This document shows positions 2,176 to 8,916 of a DNA stretch of 46,425 bases, one piece after another. The first letter of the stretch is position 1. The number at the start of each line of letters is the position of its first letter. The position numbers and the translations under genes are program-made. The notes under the pieces were generated by a model. It searched no databases and had not been told where the DNA came from. It saw nothing but the letters and a program-made list of their open reading frames with translations. The stretch is from a virus: positions 1 to 46,425 of the IMG/VR virus record IMGVR_UViG_3300042450_001601; one strand, written 5' to 3'.

Positions 2176-3105
2176 ATGGATGAAAAAACAAGAAAAAAAA
2201 TCATTTCTGAATATAAGAAAGGTAAAAGCAGTTTGGATATTGTTAAAATAGTTAAACTATCAAAACCAACAATTCTTAAAGTATTAAATGAAAATGGGTT
2301 AGTTAGAAAAAGAGATAGGTGTTCTAAACTAAAAATTGACAAAATTAATAACAATTATGTTATTATACGAACTTGCCCTAAGTGTCGTAACTTAATAGAA
2401 ACAAAATCTAAAGATAAGACAATCGCGTGTAGAAATCACCTAACTAAGATTTCCAAATCTTCGTTATGTAAACCTTGTTCTCTTGAATTACAGAAAGGCG
2501 AGGGGAATTCCTTTTATGGTAAAAAACATAGTGAGACAACAATTAATAAAATATCTACATCAAGGAAGGGTAAAGGAATGGGAAATAGTAACTCAATGTC
2601 AAATCCTGTATGGAGAAAAAAATCGTCAGATAATTTAAAAAAGAAATGGGCTAGTGGTGAATTAGAAGAAACCCGTAAACTAATGTCCGAACATATGAAA
2701 AAAACAAGAAGGTTGGGTAAAATTAAATCTGGAATTACCTCAAGAAAAGAAAAAGAAATAATAGAGTTTTTAAAAGAATATAATATTCAGTCTATACAAT
2801 CATATAGGGTTGATACTAAAATATGTGACATTTACATACCATCCCTTAATTTAATTATTGAGTATTTTGGAGACTATTGGCATTGTAATCCAAACAAATA
2901 CCCTGAAGATTATTTTAATAAGAAAAAGGGTATGTCCGCTAAAGAAATATGGGATTACGATAAAAATAAGATTGATTTAATACTAAGTTATGGTTATAAT
3001 TTAGAAGTGGTTTGGGAAAATGAACTCAAACACGACAATAAAAAAATTATAACAATTTTAGAAAAACATGACACAAAAAACAAATTCGCCCCTGAACGGT
3101 CGTGA
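2176..3105 (+). CDS. Homing endonuclease, NUMOD3 plus Vsr/EDxHD-like nuclease
   Basis: A 309-residue protein in three parts. Residues 1-45 look like a helix-turn-helix (SSLDIVKIVKLSKPTILKVL). A middle part has zinc-finger-like Cys pairs (CPKC, CKPC) and NUMOD3-type DNA-binding motifs (GEGNSFYGKKHSETTINKIS). The C-terminal nuclease domain resembles Vsr and the EDxHD homing enzymes, with CDIYIPSLNLIIEYFGDYWH as the core strand pair and active-site D/E/H, and a distal WDYDKNKIDLILSYGY. Such enzymes spread their own gene by cutting DNA that lacks it. It sits between a terminator and a glycosyltransferase gene, and its last 38 bases overlap that gene's true start, as expected of an insertion next to a target gene. 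Confidence 0.8.
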   Translation: MDEKTRKKIISEYKKGKSSLDIVKIVKLSKPTILKVLNENGLVRKRDRCSKLKIDKINNNYVIIRTCPKCRNLIETKSKDKTIACRNHLTKISKSSLCKPCSLELQKGEGNSFYGKKHSETTINKISTSRKGKGMGNSNSMSNPVWRKKSSDNLKKKWASGELEETRKLMSEHMKKTRRLGKIKSGITSRKEKEIIEFLKEYNIQSIQSYRVDTKICDIYIPSLNLIIEYFGDYWHCNPNKYPEDYFNKKKGMSAKEIWDYDKNKIDLILSYGYNLEVVWENELKHDNKKIITILEKHDTKNKFAPERS

Positions 3106-4324
3106 AAAGATACGAGTACTAGTACTCCCGTCTGACCGGTCAGGGGTAGGTTAAGGAAAATTCCGTTCAGTTGACCCCCACGTAATGTTACAAAACATGT
3201 ATAATGATGATTTTCATGTAAACATTGATTACGAACCAAAATTAAACGATCCTAACTATTGGAAAGACTATCAGATAGTTCATATCCATAGAAATATTGG
3301 TCAAACTTATGAACAAACACCACAATTACTTAAAGATTTAAAATCAATGGGGATTGTTACGATTGTGGATATTGATGATTATTGGTTACCAACAATGGAA
3401 CATCCAATTTATAGGATTATCGTTCAAGATAAAATTAATGAGAAAATTGTTGCAAACTTAAAAGAGGCTAGTTTTGTTACAACAACCACGGAACTATTCG
3501 CCAATGAAATTCGTAAGGTTAATAAAAATGTGATTGTTTTACCGAACGCTATTGATCCTAATGAAGGTCAGTTCAGAACTAAAACAGAACCGGCTGATAA
3601 AATTAGAGTTGGATGGTTAGGGGGGTCTTCTCACCTACATGATTTAAAATTATTAGATGGATTTGTTTCTAAGATTGGTAAAGAACTTAATGACAAAATA
3701 CAATATGTTTTATGTGGGTTTGACACTAGAGGGTCTGTAACGGAGATTAATAGACAAACGGGTGAAAAAACTCAAAGGCCTATTAAACCAGAAGAAACTG
3801 TTTGGAAGAAATATGAAGAAATCTTTACAGATAATTATAGAATTATTGATGATAACTATAAAAAACACCTAATGGAATTTAAAGAAGGTGATTTATCGAG
3901 TAGTATTCATCTACCGTATCAACGAGTTTGGACTAAACCTGTTTCGTCATACGCTATGAATTACTCTAAATTTGACATCTCATTGGCTCCTATTAAGAAT
4001 CACATTTTTAATAGAATGAAATCTCAACTTAAAGTTATTGAGGCTGGGTTTCATAAGAAAGCTATAATCGCTTCTGAAGTAGGCCCATATACTATCGATC
4101 TTAAACATTGTTTAAAGAATGGTGAGTTTGTTGATGGTAACGCAATGTTGGTACAGGAGAATAGAAATCACGGTGATTGGGCTAAGTTTATTAAAAAATT
4201 GGTAACGAACCCTAATTTAATTGCTGATATGGGGGAACGTCTTTATGAAACGGTTAAAGACACGTATGACCTTAGGGTGGTAACAAAAACTAGAAGCGAA
4301 TTTTACAAATCTTTAATTAAATAA
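3068..4324 (+). CDS. GT-B (GT4-like) glycosyltransferase with in-frame TAA near the start
   Basis: The open frame from 3185 lacks the first beta strand of a GT-B glycosyltransferase. The missing part lies upstream in the same frame: the ATG at 3068 gives REKIRVLVLPSDRSGVG, then TAA at 3152-3154, then GKFRSVDPHV leading directly into the ATG at 3185. The rest is typical: HIHRNIGQTYEQ, DIDDYW, NVIVLPNAIDP, and the second Rossmann domain beginning KIRVGWLGGSSHLHDL. No ribosome-binding site precedes 3185. The role would be sugar transfer from a nucleotide-sugar, together with the glycosyltransferases downstream. The TAA may be a mutation or sequencing error, be read through, or be bypassed (see findings). 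If unsuppressed, this is a damaged gene. Confidence 0.75.
3089..3146 (+). other. Long hairpin with internal palindrome at the start of the glycosyltransferase gene
   Basis: CCCCTGAACGGTC (3089-3101) pairs with GACCGGTCAGGGG (3134-3146) at 12 of 13 positions. The loop holds a perfect 14-base palindrome GAGTACTAGTACTC (3114-3127). The stretch is much more GC-rich than its surroundings and ends 5 bases before an in-frame TAA (3152). Confidence 0.65.
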
Positions 4325-5030: not shown

Positions 5031-5620
5031 AAGATTTAGATTTATTAAAAAGTCAAGCCGAACAATTACAAGATTTTATCGATCAATTTGATGATGATGA
5101 TTTGAATTATGATAACATTTTTGAGGAATCAGGTCTTGACCTTAAATTATTGGAAAGTGAAATGGAAAACCATGTGACAAAATTAGATTTGGGGTACGTT
5201 AAGTTAAATTCTGATGCGACTGACCCTAAATACAATTACGATACTGACTCTGGGTTTGATTTACATTCAATTGAGGAAGTTGTTATTTCAGCATTCGGTA
5301 GAGTGTTGGTTCCAACAGGTATATCATTCGACATTAAGGATGGGTATGAAATTCAAGTTAGATCAAAAAGTGGTTTGGCGATTAATCAGGGTTTGATGGT
5401 GTTAAATTCTCCTGGTACTGTGGATAATGGTTATTCCGGGGAAGTTAAGGTAATTGTATTTAACACTAACAGTCATCCTGTAACAATTACAAAAGGTATG
5501 AAAATAGGACAAGCAGTCCTTTGTCCTGTGGTTAACGGTAAATGGGTGAACTTAGTTCAGAAAAATAAAATAAACGAAAAAGACAGAGGAGACAATGGGT
5601 TTGGGTCAACCGGAATTTAA
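5027..5620 (+). CDS. dut: dUTPase (trimeric type)
   Basis: All five dUTPase motifs are present: TDSGFDLHS (1), RSKSGLA (2), GTVDNGYSGEVKV (3, with the catalytic Asp), KGMKIGQAVL (4) and the Gly-rich C-terminal arm DRGDNGFGSTGI (5). The enzyme hydrolyses dUTP to dUMP and keeps uracil out of phage DNA. At 197 residues it is longer than the usual ~150 because of an acidic helical N-terminal extension of about 50 residues (FDDDDLNYDNIFEESG), whose job is unknown. The C-terminal motif 5 codons overlap the start and ribosome-binding site of the next gene. Confidence 0.93.
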   Translation: MKDLDLLKSQAEQLQDFIDQFDDDDLNYDNIFEESGLDLKLLESEMENHVTKLDLGYVKLNSDATDPKYNYDTDSGFDLHSIEEVVISAFGRVLVPTGISFDIKDGYEIQVRSKSGLAINQGLMVLNSPGTVDNGYSGEVKVIVFNTNSHPVTITKGMKIGQAVLCPVVNGKWVNLVQKNKINEKDRGDNGFGSTGI

Positions 5621-6263
5621 AATATATACTTACAGTACTGATATTAAAAATTCAGTTTTTAAACAATTAACAACTCAATTAGATGTTGAGGTATTACCAA
5701 TATTAACAGAATGGAGATGGGATTTTTATCCCAAATCATTATCATTGTATGAGACATTAAAAAATGTTGACGGTGAAACTATTGTATTGGTGTGTGATGC
5801 TTATGATGTATTACCTATTAATGGTATAACTAATGATATTTTATTACAAAAAATAATTAGTGAATTTGATTTAGATAAAATCACATTTAACGCAGAAAAA
5901 AATTGTTATCCTAACACTAGTTTAGAGAAGTATTACCCTAATGTTGGTTCAATATGGAAATATTTAAACGCTGGTTTATATGTTGGTAAAGTTAAGAATA
6001 TCATTAGAATGGTTGAATCGGCTCTACCAAAAATGATGGGAGTAATTGACCAAGAAATATTTTCAATCATGTATTTGAATAATGATTTAAATATTGAAAT
6101 AGATTATACTTGTAAAGTATTTCAAACATTATATATGATTGAAGACAATGATTTAACCATAGATAATGATAAAATAATTAATAATAAAACCGGTGGTACA
6201 CCCTTACTTCTTCATGGAAACGGGAAATCACCACTTAACAAATTTTTAACCTATGACGAATAA
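5595..6263 (+). CDS. Glycosyltransferase, PLOD/procollagen-galactosyltransferase-like GT domain
   Basis: A 222-residue GT-A type domain. It shows IVLVCDAYDVLPI (donor/metal DxxD region), ITFNAEKNCYP, YLNAGLYVGKVKNI, a DQEIFS element and LLHGNGKSP. These follow the order seen in the lysyl-hydroxylase GT and procollagen galactosyltransferase-like families common in large phages. The start at 5595 overlaps dut by 26 bases and has a clear AGGAG Shine-Dalgarno seven bases upstream, rare in this window. It probably glycosylates a protein or glycan acceptor in concert with the neighbouring transferases. Confidence 0.75.
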   Translation: MGLGQPEFKIYTYSTDIKNSVFKQLTTQLDVEVLPILTEWRWDFYPKSLSLYETLKNVDGETIVLVCDAYDVLPINGITNDILLQKIISEFDLDKITFNAEKNCYPNTSLEKYYPNVGSIWKYLNAGLYVGKVKNIIRMVESALPKMMGVIDQEIFSIMYLNNDLNIEIDYTCKVFQTLYMIEDNDLTIDNDKIINNKTGGTPLLLHGNGKSPLNKFLTYDE

Positions 6264-6858
6264 TACTGAATTATGTGATTATTTTTTTAAATATCACTCA
6301 GACAAATGTCCTCAAGTAGGACATTCTTACTCACCACATTATTATGAACTTTTAAAAGACGGTAAAGAAACATATTTAAATGTTCTGGAAATTGGAATTG
6401 GTAATAATGAATTAATGAAACCGTTATATGGTGAAAGATATATTGTTGGTGGGAGTTTAAAGGCGTTTAACGATTTTTTCATTAACGCAAACATTTATGG
6501 ACTTGATATTAGAGAGGATGTTTTATTTTCTGAGAAACGAATTAAATGTTTTTACACTGACCAATCAAATTCCGAAGAATTAGTTAAATCAATTAATGTA
6601 ATAAAAAAAAGTTCAAATGATGAAGATTTAGAATTTGATTTAATAATTGATGATGGTAGTCATATTTTTGACCATATGGTTCTAACTTTTAGAACTTTAG
6701 GTAAATATTTGAAACATAATGGGATATACATTATAGAAGACATAAAAAGGTTTGAATTAGATTTATTCCTTAACATGGAAATTTCGGGGTTTGAAATGAT
6801 TAAAATTCATCGTGGTAACACAGGTCAAGATGATTTTATTGCCTATAGAAAAAAATAA
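6253..6858 (+). CDS. Class I SAM-dependent methyltransferase-like protein
   Basis: A 201-residue protein with a Rossmann-like core: VLEIGIGNNE (SAM-binding loop), NIYGLDIRED (second strand, acidic end), FDLIIDDGSHIFDH (motif like the Methyltransf_24/cephalosporin-hydroxylase group) and GIYIIEDI. It overlaps the preceding glycosyltransferase by 11 bases. In a glycosyltransferase cluster the likely substrate is a sugar, but this is inferred from context only. Confidence 0.7.
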   Translation: MTNNTELCDYFFKYHSDKCPQVGHSYSPHYYELLKDGKETYLNVLEIGIGNNELMKPLYGERYIVGGSLKAFNDFFINANIYGLDIREDVLFSEKRIKCFYTDQSNSEELVKSINVIKKSSNDEDLEFDLIIDDGSHIFDHMVLTFRTLGKYLKHNGIYIIEDIKRFELDLFLNMEISGFEMIKIHRGNTGQDDFIAYRKK

Positions 6859-6865
6859 ATTAAGT

Positions 6866-7408
6866 ATGTTTTTAAATATAATAACCCCATGCTCAAGGCC
6901 TGAAAATTTATTAAAAATTTCAGAGTCAATTAACATACCCGAAGAAAATTATAGATGGATTGTTGTATGTGATTCAGATTCATTACCTAATGAAGAATTA
7001 ATCCCTAAAAATTGTGAGATATATCATTACAAAGATTTAGAAAGTATTTCAGGTAATTCACAAAGAAATCACGCTTTGAATATGATTGATAACGGGTTTA
7101 TTTATTTTAACGATGACGACACTTTGATACACCCAGAATTATGGGTGTATATTAAAGATTTAGAAAATGATTTTATATCTTTCATACAATTAAATAAAAA
7201 TGGGAATTTAAGGTTATTAGGAAATTTTATTAATATTGGTTATATTGATAGTCACAACTTCATAGTTAATCGAAAAATAGTTGGTGAATCACGATTTATA
7301 ATTAACAAATACGACGCCGATGGTTATTTTGCGGTCGAATGTTTTAATAAGTCAAAAAATAGTTTTTACATCAATAAACCACTCTCAATATATAATCTTT
7401 TAAGATGA
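6866..7408 (+). CDS. GT-A family glycosyltransferase (short)
   Basis: Reading from ATG 6866 gives a standard GT-A start (MFLNIITPCSRPENL). A longer frame from 6812 would overlap the methyltransferase by 47 bases and add only non-homologous residues, so 6866 is preferred. The protein of about 180 residues has the nucleotide-binding strand WIVVCDSDS and the metal-binding motif IYFNDDDTLIHPE. It appears to be a minimal catalytic domain without the usual C-terminal extension. It overlaps the next start by 4 bases. Confidence 0.7.
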   Translation: MFLNIITPCSRPENLLKISESINIPEENYRWIVVCDSDSLPNEELIPKNCEIYHYKDLESISGNSQRNHALNMIDNGFIYFNDDDTLIHPELWVYIKDLENDFISFIQLNKNGNLRLLGNFINIGYIDSHNFIVNRKIVGESRFIINKYDADGYFAVECFNKSKNSFYINKPLSIYNLLR

Positions 7409-8916
7409 TTACAATAATATATTCCACTCATAAAGATTCAGAATTTAATAAGAAATTTAAACAACATTTATTACAAACTGTTGGGGTTCCTAATCCTCAA
7501 ATATTAGAATACGAAAATCACAACCAATACTCATTATCTGAACTCTATAATTCAGGTATAACCGAATCAATATACGATATAATAGTTTGTTGTCATAATG
7601 ATATTAAACTTGAAAAAAACTGGGGAAAAAAACTATTAAAAGATTTTTCAGATAATGTTGATTATGGTATCATAGGTAAAGCTGGGTCCTGTTATTTTCC
7701 CGAATCAGGGGTTTATTGGGAAAGAATGACACAAACTATGGTTGGTCAAGTTTATCACCACCCAGAAGGGAATAAAAAATGGGTAAACAATTATTCAGCT
7801 AAATTACCGTATTTAATACCCGTAGTAACAATCGATGGACTTTTTATTTCTTTTGATAAAACAAAAATTAAACATGGGTTTGATGAAACAATCGGTCGTT
7901 TCCATTTTTACGATCATTTATTTTGTTTACCAAATTATTTAGATGGAGTTAAAATTGGCGTCACATCTTCATTCGAAATTACACACCAATCTGTTGGTCA
8001 ACCAAACCAAGAGTTTTGGGAAAGTAAGGATAAGTTTTTAGAAAAATGGGGGAAAAATTTACCATTAGATTTATTACCGACTAACGTATATGCTCCTGAA
8101 ATTAATGAAAAACCATTAAAAAACATTGGTAAAGTTGCGATAATAATACCGACTAAAGGTAAAGTTGAAATGTTATTTCAATGTATTGAATCTTTTTATG
8201 ATTATTGTAACCCCGAATTATTCCATATTTTTATTGCAGACACTGGATCGACCGATGATGAAAAAGACGATATAAAAACTCACATAACCTTACATAATAA
8301 TATTTCATTAATTGAATACGATTATTATAATTTCTCTAAGATAAACAACGATATGGTAAATAATCATGTTACCAAAGATTATGAATTCTTATTATTTTGT
8401 AATAACGATATTAAATTATTAAACAATGTTGTCTACGGAATGTTAAAAATTATGAAGGAAAACCCTAGGTCGGGAACTGTCGGTTGTCGATTACATTTTG
8501 GAGATAATACCATCCAACATGGTGGAGTGTTTGCCGGAGTTAATAAAACGGGTCAATTTGTTTTAACTCATAATAATTTAAAATCATATTATAATTTTCC
8601 CACATCATTTAAAAAGGTATTCGGAAATACTGGAGCACTTATGATGATCAGAAAAAAAGTTTTTGAGAAATGTGGGGGGTTCAATGAAAAATATACAACC
8701 TGTTTTGAGGATGTAGAATTAAATGCTCAATGTCGTTTATTAGGGTTTGAGAACTATTTTGACGGTAGTTTAGTATCTTATCATCTTGAGAGTCAATCTA
8801 GAGGTAAAGATGAGGATAATACGAAAGGAGAGTCGATTGATTATAGAGAAACATTATTACCGTTTATTTCTCAAAATTTCAATAGACTACGTGAACATAT
8901 TGTAAATATCAACTAA
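7405..8916 (+). CDS. Two-domain glycosyltransferase (GT2 C-terminal domain)
   Basis: A 503-residue protein. Residues 1-220 form a GT-A-like domain (MITIIYSTHKDSEFNKKF; YDIIVCCHNDIKLEKNW), similar in layout to the StrF-like glycosyltransferase group. Residues 240-480 form a second, classical GT2 domain (VAIIIPTKGKVEMLFQCIES; IADTGSTDDEKDD; FLLFCNNDIKLL; FGNTGALMMIRKKVFEKCGG; CFEDVELNAQCRLLGF, like rhamnosyltransferases). Two active sites on one chain would allow two sequential sugar additions. It ends the first glycosyltransferase run. Confidence 0.8.
   Translation: MITIIYSTHKDSEFNKKFKQHLLQTVGVPNPQILEYENHNQYSLSELYNSGITESIYDIIVCCHNDIKLEKNWGKKLLKDFSDNVDYGIIGKAGSCYFPESGVYWERMTQTMVGQVYHHPEGNKKWVNNYSAKLPYLIPVVTIDGLFISFDKTKIKHGFDETIGRFHFYDHLFCLPNYLDGVKIGVTSSFEITHQSVGQPNQEFWESKDKFLEKWGKNLPLDLLPTNVYAPEINEKPLKNIGKVAIIIPTKGKVEMLFQCIESFYDYCNPELFHIFIADTGSTDDEKDDIKTHITLHNNISLIEYDYYNFSKINNDMVNNHVTKDYEFLLFCNNDIKLLNNVVYGMLKIMKENPRSGTVGCRLHFGDNTIQHGGVFAGVNKTGQFVLTHNNLKSYYNFPTSFKKVFGNTGALMMIRKKVFEKCGGFNEKYTTCFEDVELNAQCRLLGFENYFDGSLVSYHLESQSRGKDEDNTKGESIDYRETLLPFISQNFNRLREHIVNIN

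Follow-up and report, generated by a model that had tools for sequence, protein, structure and literature searches.

Short-gap ribosomal hopping predicted in a phage glycosyltransferase family rewritten by a homing element

The virus record IMGVR_UViG_3300042450_001601 carries a glycosyltransferase (GT) gene that overlaps a homing-endonuclease-like gene (HEG) at its start and is broken by one stop codon shortly afterwards, and we consider it highly probable, at roughly 86%, that ribosomes cross this break by programmed hopping over a short gap, in a manner resembling T4 gene 60, driven by a 5′ RNA hairpin and borne by the homing element. The window analysed here is the whole stretch of 46,425 bases, a partial genome that also holds genes for a T4-like portal protein and a gp23-like head protein. 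We infer the hop, and whatever efficiency it has, from about 50 distinct interrupted alleles of the gene, carried by aquatic bacterial viruses, and their uninterrupted homologues; a fused GT protein would be produced across the stop.

All parts of the locus lie on the + strand. The HEG (2176–3105) encodes 309 residues matching NUMOD3 (1.4e-6) and the PHROG homing endonuclease (2e-8), with a helix-turn-helix-like N-terminus, zinc-ribbon-like cysteines, NUMOD3 and a conserved C-terminal domain that we read as a Vsr/EDxHD-type nuclease. Its open reading frame (ORF) overlaps the GT start by 38 nucleotides (nt). The first part of the GT ORF (3068–3151), a cassette-borne replacement 5′ end of 28 codons, starts at ATG 3068–3070 (MTQKTNSPLNGREKIRVLVLPSDRSGVG) and finishes in the putative take-off codon GGT (Gly, 3149–3151); next come the TAA stop that constitutes the bypassed gap in this sequence (3152–3154) and the putative landing codon GGA (Gly, 3155–3157). 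Beyond it the same frame runs on as GKFRSVDPHV... through the GT body, 388 codons after the landing codon (3158–4324, stop at 4322–4324), with a profile match to the glycosyltransferase phrog_7162 at 6.6e-46; sequence search found no relative with a solved structure. An initial annotation, made from the letters of the window, had described this frame with its single TAA flanked by glycine codons, and its coordinates are confirmed, the body being intact to 4324.

A homing-endonuclease element has inserted in a phage GT gene and replaced its first codons with a rewritten 5′ end, which finishes in a Gly or Ser codon followed by a stop-led gap of 2–10 nt. In the mechanism that we propose, the ribosome would halt there, its A site holding the stop and its peptidyl-tRNA still bound to the take-off codon; this tRNA would then let go, the mRNA would slide, and the tRNA would re-pair at the first matching Gly or Ser codon, where translation would resume to yield the same SGVG-KFRS protein as in uninterrupted phages.

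Gap rules and codon matching among interrupted alleles

A scan of viral contigs for GT homologues returned 80 loci, and pattern scans together with endonuclease searches enlarged the set to 52 tabulated alleles (two from one contig) plus one allele with a 10-nt gap. Many of these are related and their numbers are not numbers of independent events, for which reason we also give counts based on the GT tree. The pattern scans demanded a stop after GV(G/S), so that other arrangements were missed there partly by construction; a search with an HEG profile, free of any stop requirement, gave the same picture, plus uninterrupted GTs. No cultured representative of the interrupted gene was found: a search of INPHARED gave only GTs below 60% identity, of which the one inspected, in megaphage LR756501, is uninterrupted, and a scan of genome contigs gave one match, in an actinobacterium.

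Most homologous phage GTs read ..VLVLPSDKTGVG-KFRSVDPH.. unbroken, with SGVG-KFRS contiguous and no residue at the position of the TAA, so that the predicted product of the hop would be the normal protein; an alignment of homologues was a check proposed in the initial annotation, and its outcome favours that reading. A minority are interrupted, all at exactly the same point. Neither chance nor sequencing error can account for this architecture, as about 50 distinct alleles have it and they come from many unrelated metagenomes; the stop, which recurs in independent contigs, is genuine.

The interrupted alleles share one rule: an RGY codon, a stop-led gap, a landing codon and then [K/Y/F/H/S][F/Y]R[S]. 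The last GV(G/S) codon is always GGY or AGY when the gene is interrupted, whereas uninterrupted alleles also use GGA, GGG and TCN. Directly after it stands the stop, in all 52 tabulated alleles (TGA in 26, TAA in 24, TAG in 2), a regularity that is partly due to how alleles were selected. Counted from the first base of the stop, the gap measures 2 nt in 5 alleles (where the stop overlaps the landing codon), 3 nt in 31, 4 nt in 3, 5 nt in 5, 6 nt in 1, 8 nt in 5, 9 nt in 2 and 10 nt in 1. Nineteen of the 53 gaps are thus not multiples of three, and still the GT frame always begins at the landing codon. The GT tree implies at least 14 changes in gap length and at least 11 in gap length modulo 3. 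The longest gap, seen in L190, L193 and L243, reads GGC|TGAATTTAAA|GGA, and its hairpin arms CCAACTCCAG:CTGGAGTTGG pair perfectly.

Codon matching was scored on the first two bases, a measure that says nothing on which tRNA reads the codon. By this score a Gly take-off codon GGY meets a GGN landing codon in 42 of 42 alleles (GGT to GGA in the window), and a Ser take-off codon AGY meets AGN in 10 of 11. The tree needs at least five switches of take-off class; in four well-supported independent comparisons, too few for a claim of significance, the landing class tracks the take-off class in 3.7 on average and does the opposite in none. The Gly-to-Gly hop put forward initially for the window gains its strongest further support from the alleles with Ser at both positions and from the gaps of 2, 4, 5, 8 and 10 nt, across which only a jump from codon to codon would give the GT. 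These out-of-frame gaps are a stronger argument than the codon matching itself.

Ordinary recoding, with readthrough at in-frame gaps and frameshifting at the others, has some local appeal. The 3-nt gap of the window keeps the frame, readthrough there would add X-Gly, weak stop contexts could permit it, and a −1 slip in the alleles with 2-nt gaps would restore the frame at the cost of one extra Leu. Across the family, however, it would need unrelated mechanisms for gaps of 2, 4, 5, 8 and 10 nt and for gaps of 3, 6 and 9 nt, and it leaves unexplained why the codon before the GT body matches its counterpart, Gly with Gly and Ser with Ser; we judge it unlikely. Reassignment of a stop codon was also considered and rejected, as TAA, TGA and TAG all occur both at the gaps and as terminators of genes in the window.

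Hopping has points against it as well. The whole analysis rests on comparative sequence, an Escherichia coli ribosome may not reproduce the hop, and the family lacks the take-off stem-loop of gene 60 and shows no sign of its nascent-peptide motif. One allele, L213, reads AGT|TAA|GGC, without a matched codon, and L250 combines take-off AGC with landing AGA. The matching could moreover stem partly from descent, both codons deriving from one GV(G/S) position, and partly from a preference of the endonuclease for certain target codons; given this shared origin and possible preference, codon matching alone is no proof of selection. L213 (3896–3964 onward), the only clear mismatch between take-off and landing, also has a weaker lower stem, and may possibly represent Gly-to-Ser drift or a hybrid of element and recipient.

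A conserved RNA hairpin upstream of the stop

The initial annotation had pointed to a 13-bp hairpin with a 14-base palindrome just before the stop. The structure is real, with one mismatch: CCCCTGAaCGGTC pairs with GACCgGTCAGGGG around the palindrome GAGTACTAGTACTC, and none of 200 synonymous recodings is as stable (z = −4.4). Its 5′ arms span 3088–3101 (GCCCCTGA at 3088–3095 and CGGTC at 3097–3101) and its 3′ arms 3134–3147 (GACCG at 3134–3138 and TCAGGGGT at 3140–3147), ending 1 nt 5′ of the take-off codon. Between them lies an inner hairpin, GAGTA-CTAG-TACTC (3114–3127), whose equivalent in 13 relatives is 89% paired and shows two-sided changes.

All 51 interrupted alleles tested have a stem-loop 5′ of the take-off codon, a feature shared by none of the 29 uninterrupted homologues. 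When the 72 nt up to the take-off codon are folded and compared with synonymous recodings, interrupted alleles average z = −4.52 and an energy of −29.3, against z = +0.51 and −7.0 for the uninterrupted homologues. The lower stem pairs about −66/−52 with −13/−4 and ends 0–4 nt before the take-off codon, and its arms differ from allele to allele: GCCCCTGA:TCAGGGGT in the window, CTGACCCCAGTT:AACTGGGGTCAG in L237, CAACGCCC:GGGCGTTG in L041 and CCCCCGTT:AACGGGGG in L257. The pair that involves the third base of the codon before GGN forms in 50 of 51 alleles and occurs in all four Watson–Crick types.

Several comparisons indicate that this pairing is under selection. Wobble positions show compensatory changes, for example CG/UA/GC/AU at one pair with zero breaks. 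A gapless set of 13 alleles has two-sided changes at 8 pairs (4.2 in shuffles), and sliding the arms by 1–3 columns lowers its pairing from 88% to 29–47%. Arms score higher with their own partners (16.29) than with permuted ones (13.85 ± 0.21; 0 of 2000 permutations as high). A covariance model built from 13 other alleles found the window hairpin blind, at 3076–3151 (E = 1.7e-7), ending exactly on the take-off codon. It finds one convincing site per phage record; no second hop site in the same phages was convincing, the extra matches being on the opposite strand of the same hairpin, in left GT-start remnants, or weak. Downstream, the gap and the next 60 nt carry no signal of selected structure (mean z = +0.46). 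Among known Rfam families no candidate was convincing, the S15 leader reaching 23 bits against a cutoff of 39.5 and neisseria_FSE 19.1 against 50.

In the model for T4 gene 60, the upper part of the 5′ stem has already formed beyond the exit channel, and pairing of the remainder after release acts as a ‘motor’ (PMC5009743). A similar geometry would suit the GT family. In the halted ribosome the 3′ arm of the stem would lie inside the upstream mRNA channel, where only the upper hairpin could form, and the hairpin closing behind the ribosome would both drive and limit the forward slide; a lower arm of about 7–12 bp and a slide (gap plus 3 nt) of 5–13 nt would fit such a motor.

A strong 5′ hairpin in a mobile-element setting would also suit a processing signal, and DNA data alone do not separate a hop from hairpin-guided excision of the gap from the RNA. 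No bacterial machinery is known to excise 5–13 nt beside a hairpin. Wobble-type matches between take-off and landing codons (GGC to GGT, GGT to GGA, AGC to AGT) are better suited to codon–anticodon pairing than to repeat-based excision, and splicing would have no use for the stop that immediately follows the take-off codon in all alleles; we regard excision as very unlikely.

A mobile cassette and selection on both sides of the stop

The homing endonuclease noted initially as lying directly upstream turns out to be more than a neighbour, in that pairs of closely related loci indicate that the interruption and the HEG travel as one cassette of about 1 kb that includes a rewritten GT 5′ end. L029 and L028 share 97% identity upstream and 95% downstream; what sets them apart is one block, about 1,034 bp long and made up of the endonuclease, the new 28-codon 5′ end and the gap, that replaces 110 bp. 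The block ends exactly at the landing codon, where homology resumes and which we take as the right-hand cassette boundary (3155–3157 in the window); L031/L038 and L041/L044 behave likewise. L242 keeps the old GT start MKKLKVLVVPSDRTGVSYF as a stub before the endonuclease, and the stub is also found in L229/L230, which places the insertion site at the GV(G/S)|xF junction. In the window, the stretch just 5′ of the HEG start (2141–2170), which resembles ..PSDKTGV, is tentatively read as a probable left remnant, now degenerate, of the GT's original 5′ end; many interrupted alleles have comparable stretches before the HEG. Four uninterrupted GTs (L001, L002, L009 and L059) depart at the insertion site from the nearly invariant GVG, reading GVS or GCG, and may be resistant to cutting by the endonuclease.

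On the tree of GT bodies, the interrupted state requires at least 13 gains or losses on well-supported branches, and the nearest relatives of the window, L001 and L003 (highest identity 88%), are uninterrupted. Upstream of the 52 alleles, the endonuclease is full in 32, a remnant in 10 and absent in 9, with context lacking for 1, and the hairpin and stop persist in the 19 alleles in which the HEG has decayed or is absent. A second, shorter lineage of this endonuclease, of about 250 residues, lies directly 5′ of uninterrupted GTs of the same family (L201, L204, L206, L208, L209, L214, L216, L223, L227 and L235), so that such endonucleases do not always come with a hop. Carriers of the element are probably spared renewed cutting by the gap.

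Purifying selection acts on the coding sequence on either side of the stop. Among interrupted alleles, the ratio of nonsynonymous to synonymous polymorphism (pN/pS) comes to 0.29 in the last 16 codons of part 1, just before the stop, and to 0.32 in the 21 codons after the stop; reading part 1 in the +1 frame raises the former to 1.40. This core peptide is conserved about equally in interrupted (0.29) and uninterrupted (0.26) homologues. The N-terminal extension varies freely (0.90) and KKYK is not conserved; no constraint that would point to a special peptide signal is seen in the extension.

Insertions of HEGs do disrupt genes, and the GT could in principle be dead, broken by the homing element and decaying. 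The downstream ORFs are intact in all alleles (about 380 codons, or to the contig end), with no frameshift or stop seen in the GT body of interrupted alleles and with the low pN/pS just downstream of the gap; the stop and hairpin outlast loss of the HEG, and recurrent, rule-bound gaps are unlike random damage. Decay is hardly tenable on these grounds.

Another possibility is a split gene, in which translation of a short peptide terminates at the stop and the GT body has its own start downstream. Many alleles do have an in-frame ATG 10 codons past the landing codon, including the window at 3185, from which a gene call would give a 379-residue protein; gene finders would miss or shorten such genes. 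The same ATG is missing in many other alleles, however, and in some the first start lies at codon 50–90. In L023 and L041 the 100 codons that follow the landing site contain no ATG, GTG or TTG, so that separate initiation of a complete GT is unavailable to them. A late start would also lose the N-terminal strand and the glycine motif, both of which hardly vary among uninterrupted homologues, and out-of-frame gaps and codon matching would be pointless, which makes a split gene highly improbable in our assessment. No Shine–Dalgarno sequence is obvious in the start regions, which are A-rich.

Relation to known bypassing systems

The predicted GT hop resembles bypassing in T4 gene 60 with its neighbour mobA (PMC5009743, PMC3014915, PMC2988022, PMC11194080). 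In both, the two codons match, the take-off codon is followed at once by a stop, and a 5′ stem-loop is proposed to push the ribosome as it closes; in both, a homing endonuclease gene lies upstream, the gap probably prevents renewed cutting, and the product, predicted in the GT family, contains nothing of the gap. The likeness drawn in the initial annotation is supported, with refinements. The gap is 50 nt in gene 60 and 2–10 nt in the GT family, where it is often in frame; take-off is GGA there and GGY or AGY here, with versions that would use tRNA-Ser; and the GT family has neither a take-off stem-loop over the stop nor a conserved KKYK-type peptide, which in gene 60 lies about 25–30 residues before the P site. 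The GT cassette also rewrites the 5′ end of its target, and whereas gene 60 is one gene, the GT family is mobile, with its dozens of alleles.

The byp elements of Magnusiomyces capitatus mitochondria resemble the family in being many short inserts skipped in translation between loosely matched codons, but they number 81, are spread over many genes, are read by yeast mitochondrial ribosomes and seem not to depend on mRNA context (PMC5009743); the interruption described here concerns one phage gene family, with a stop codon and a strong hairpin close by. In E. coli, synthetic ‘stop hops’ have the exact layout of the window, matched codons around a stop with nine nucleotides read as one amino acid, in laboratory constructs (PMC5009743). 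A review of 2016 knew of no natural in-frame stop hopping, although short counterparts with matched codons had long been presumed (PMC5009743). Free-standing HNH and GIY-YIG homing endonucleases of T4-like phages (PMC2988022) likewise sit beside their target genes and spread among related phages, but the HEG described here also brings a replacement 5′ coding end and a putative hop signal. We found no description of a hopping GT family in the open-access literature; most subscription papers and preprints fall outside this coverage.

So far, phage ribosome hopping with a known purpose has meant T4 gene 60 and no other gene, and the many signals of that gene are difficult to tell apart. The GT family would add about 50 natural versions that vary in distance, frame, stop codon and tRNA but retain a hairpin and matched codons, which points to the 5′ stem-loop ‘motor’ as the core element. 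We lean, somewhat beyond even odds, towards a broader reading, namely that these alleles belong to a widespread class of mobile elements in which hairpin zipping alone, without a peptide or take-off stem-loop of the gene 60 type, would drive hops of 2–10 nt in any frame with tRNA-Gly or tRNA-Ser, as the first natural family of short hops, including in-frame stop hops. If so, the rules of hopping could be read by comparison. Short natural hops of this kind, in-frame stop hops included, have long been expected yet undocumented, and are now directly testable. The family further suggests that a selfish gene can break a host gene, supply a rewritten start and stay harmless through translation.

Elsewhere in the window, a partial genome in which no phage tRNA that might supply the hop was found, a second kind of homing element occurs in the same phage. 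The gene for the 1034-residue T4-like portal protein (PF07230; 36113–39214, − strand) carries an in-frame intein (PF14890 across residues 162–546) with an HNH endonuclease (PHROG match at 251–338). After the GT, exonuclease and dUTPase genes, 5595–8916 holds more glycosyltransferase-like and methyltransferase genes (PLOD GT-like, methyltransferase and GT2). At L133, the cassette is directly preceded by a gene (1724–2884) whose product is a secreted protein with a PKD domain and a C-terminal type IX secretion tail; this hints that the hosts are Bacteroidota and that the GT sits in different genomic surroundings there.
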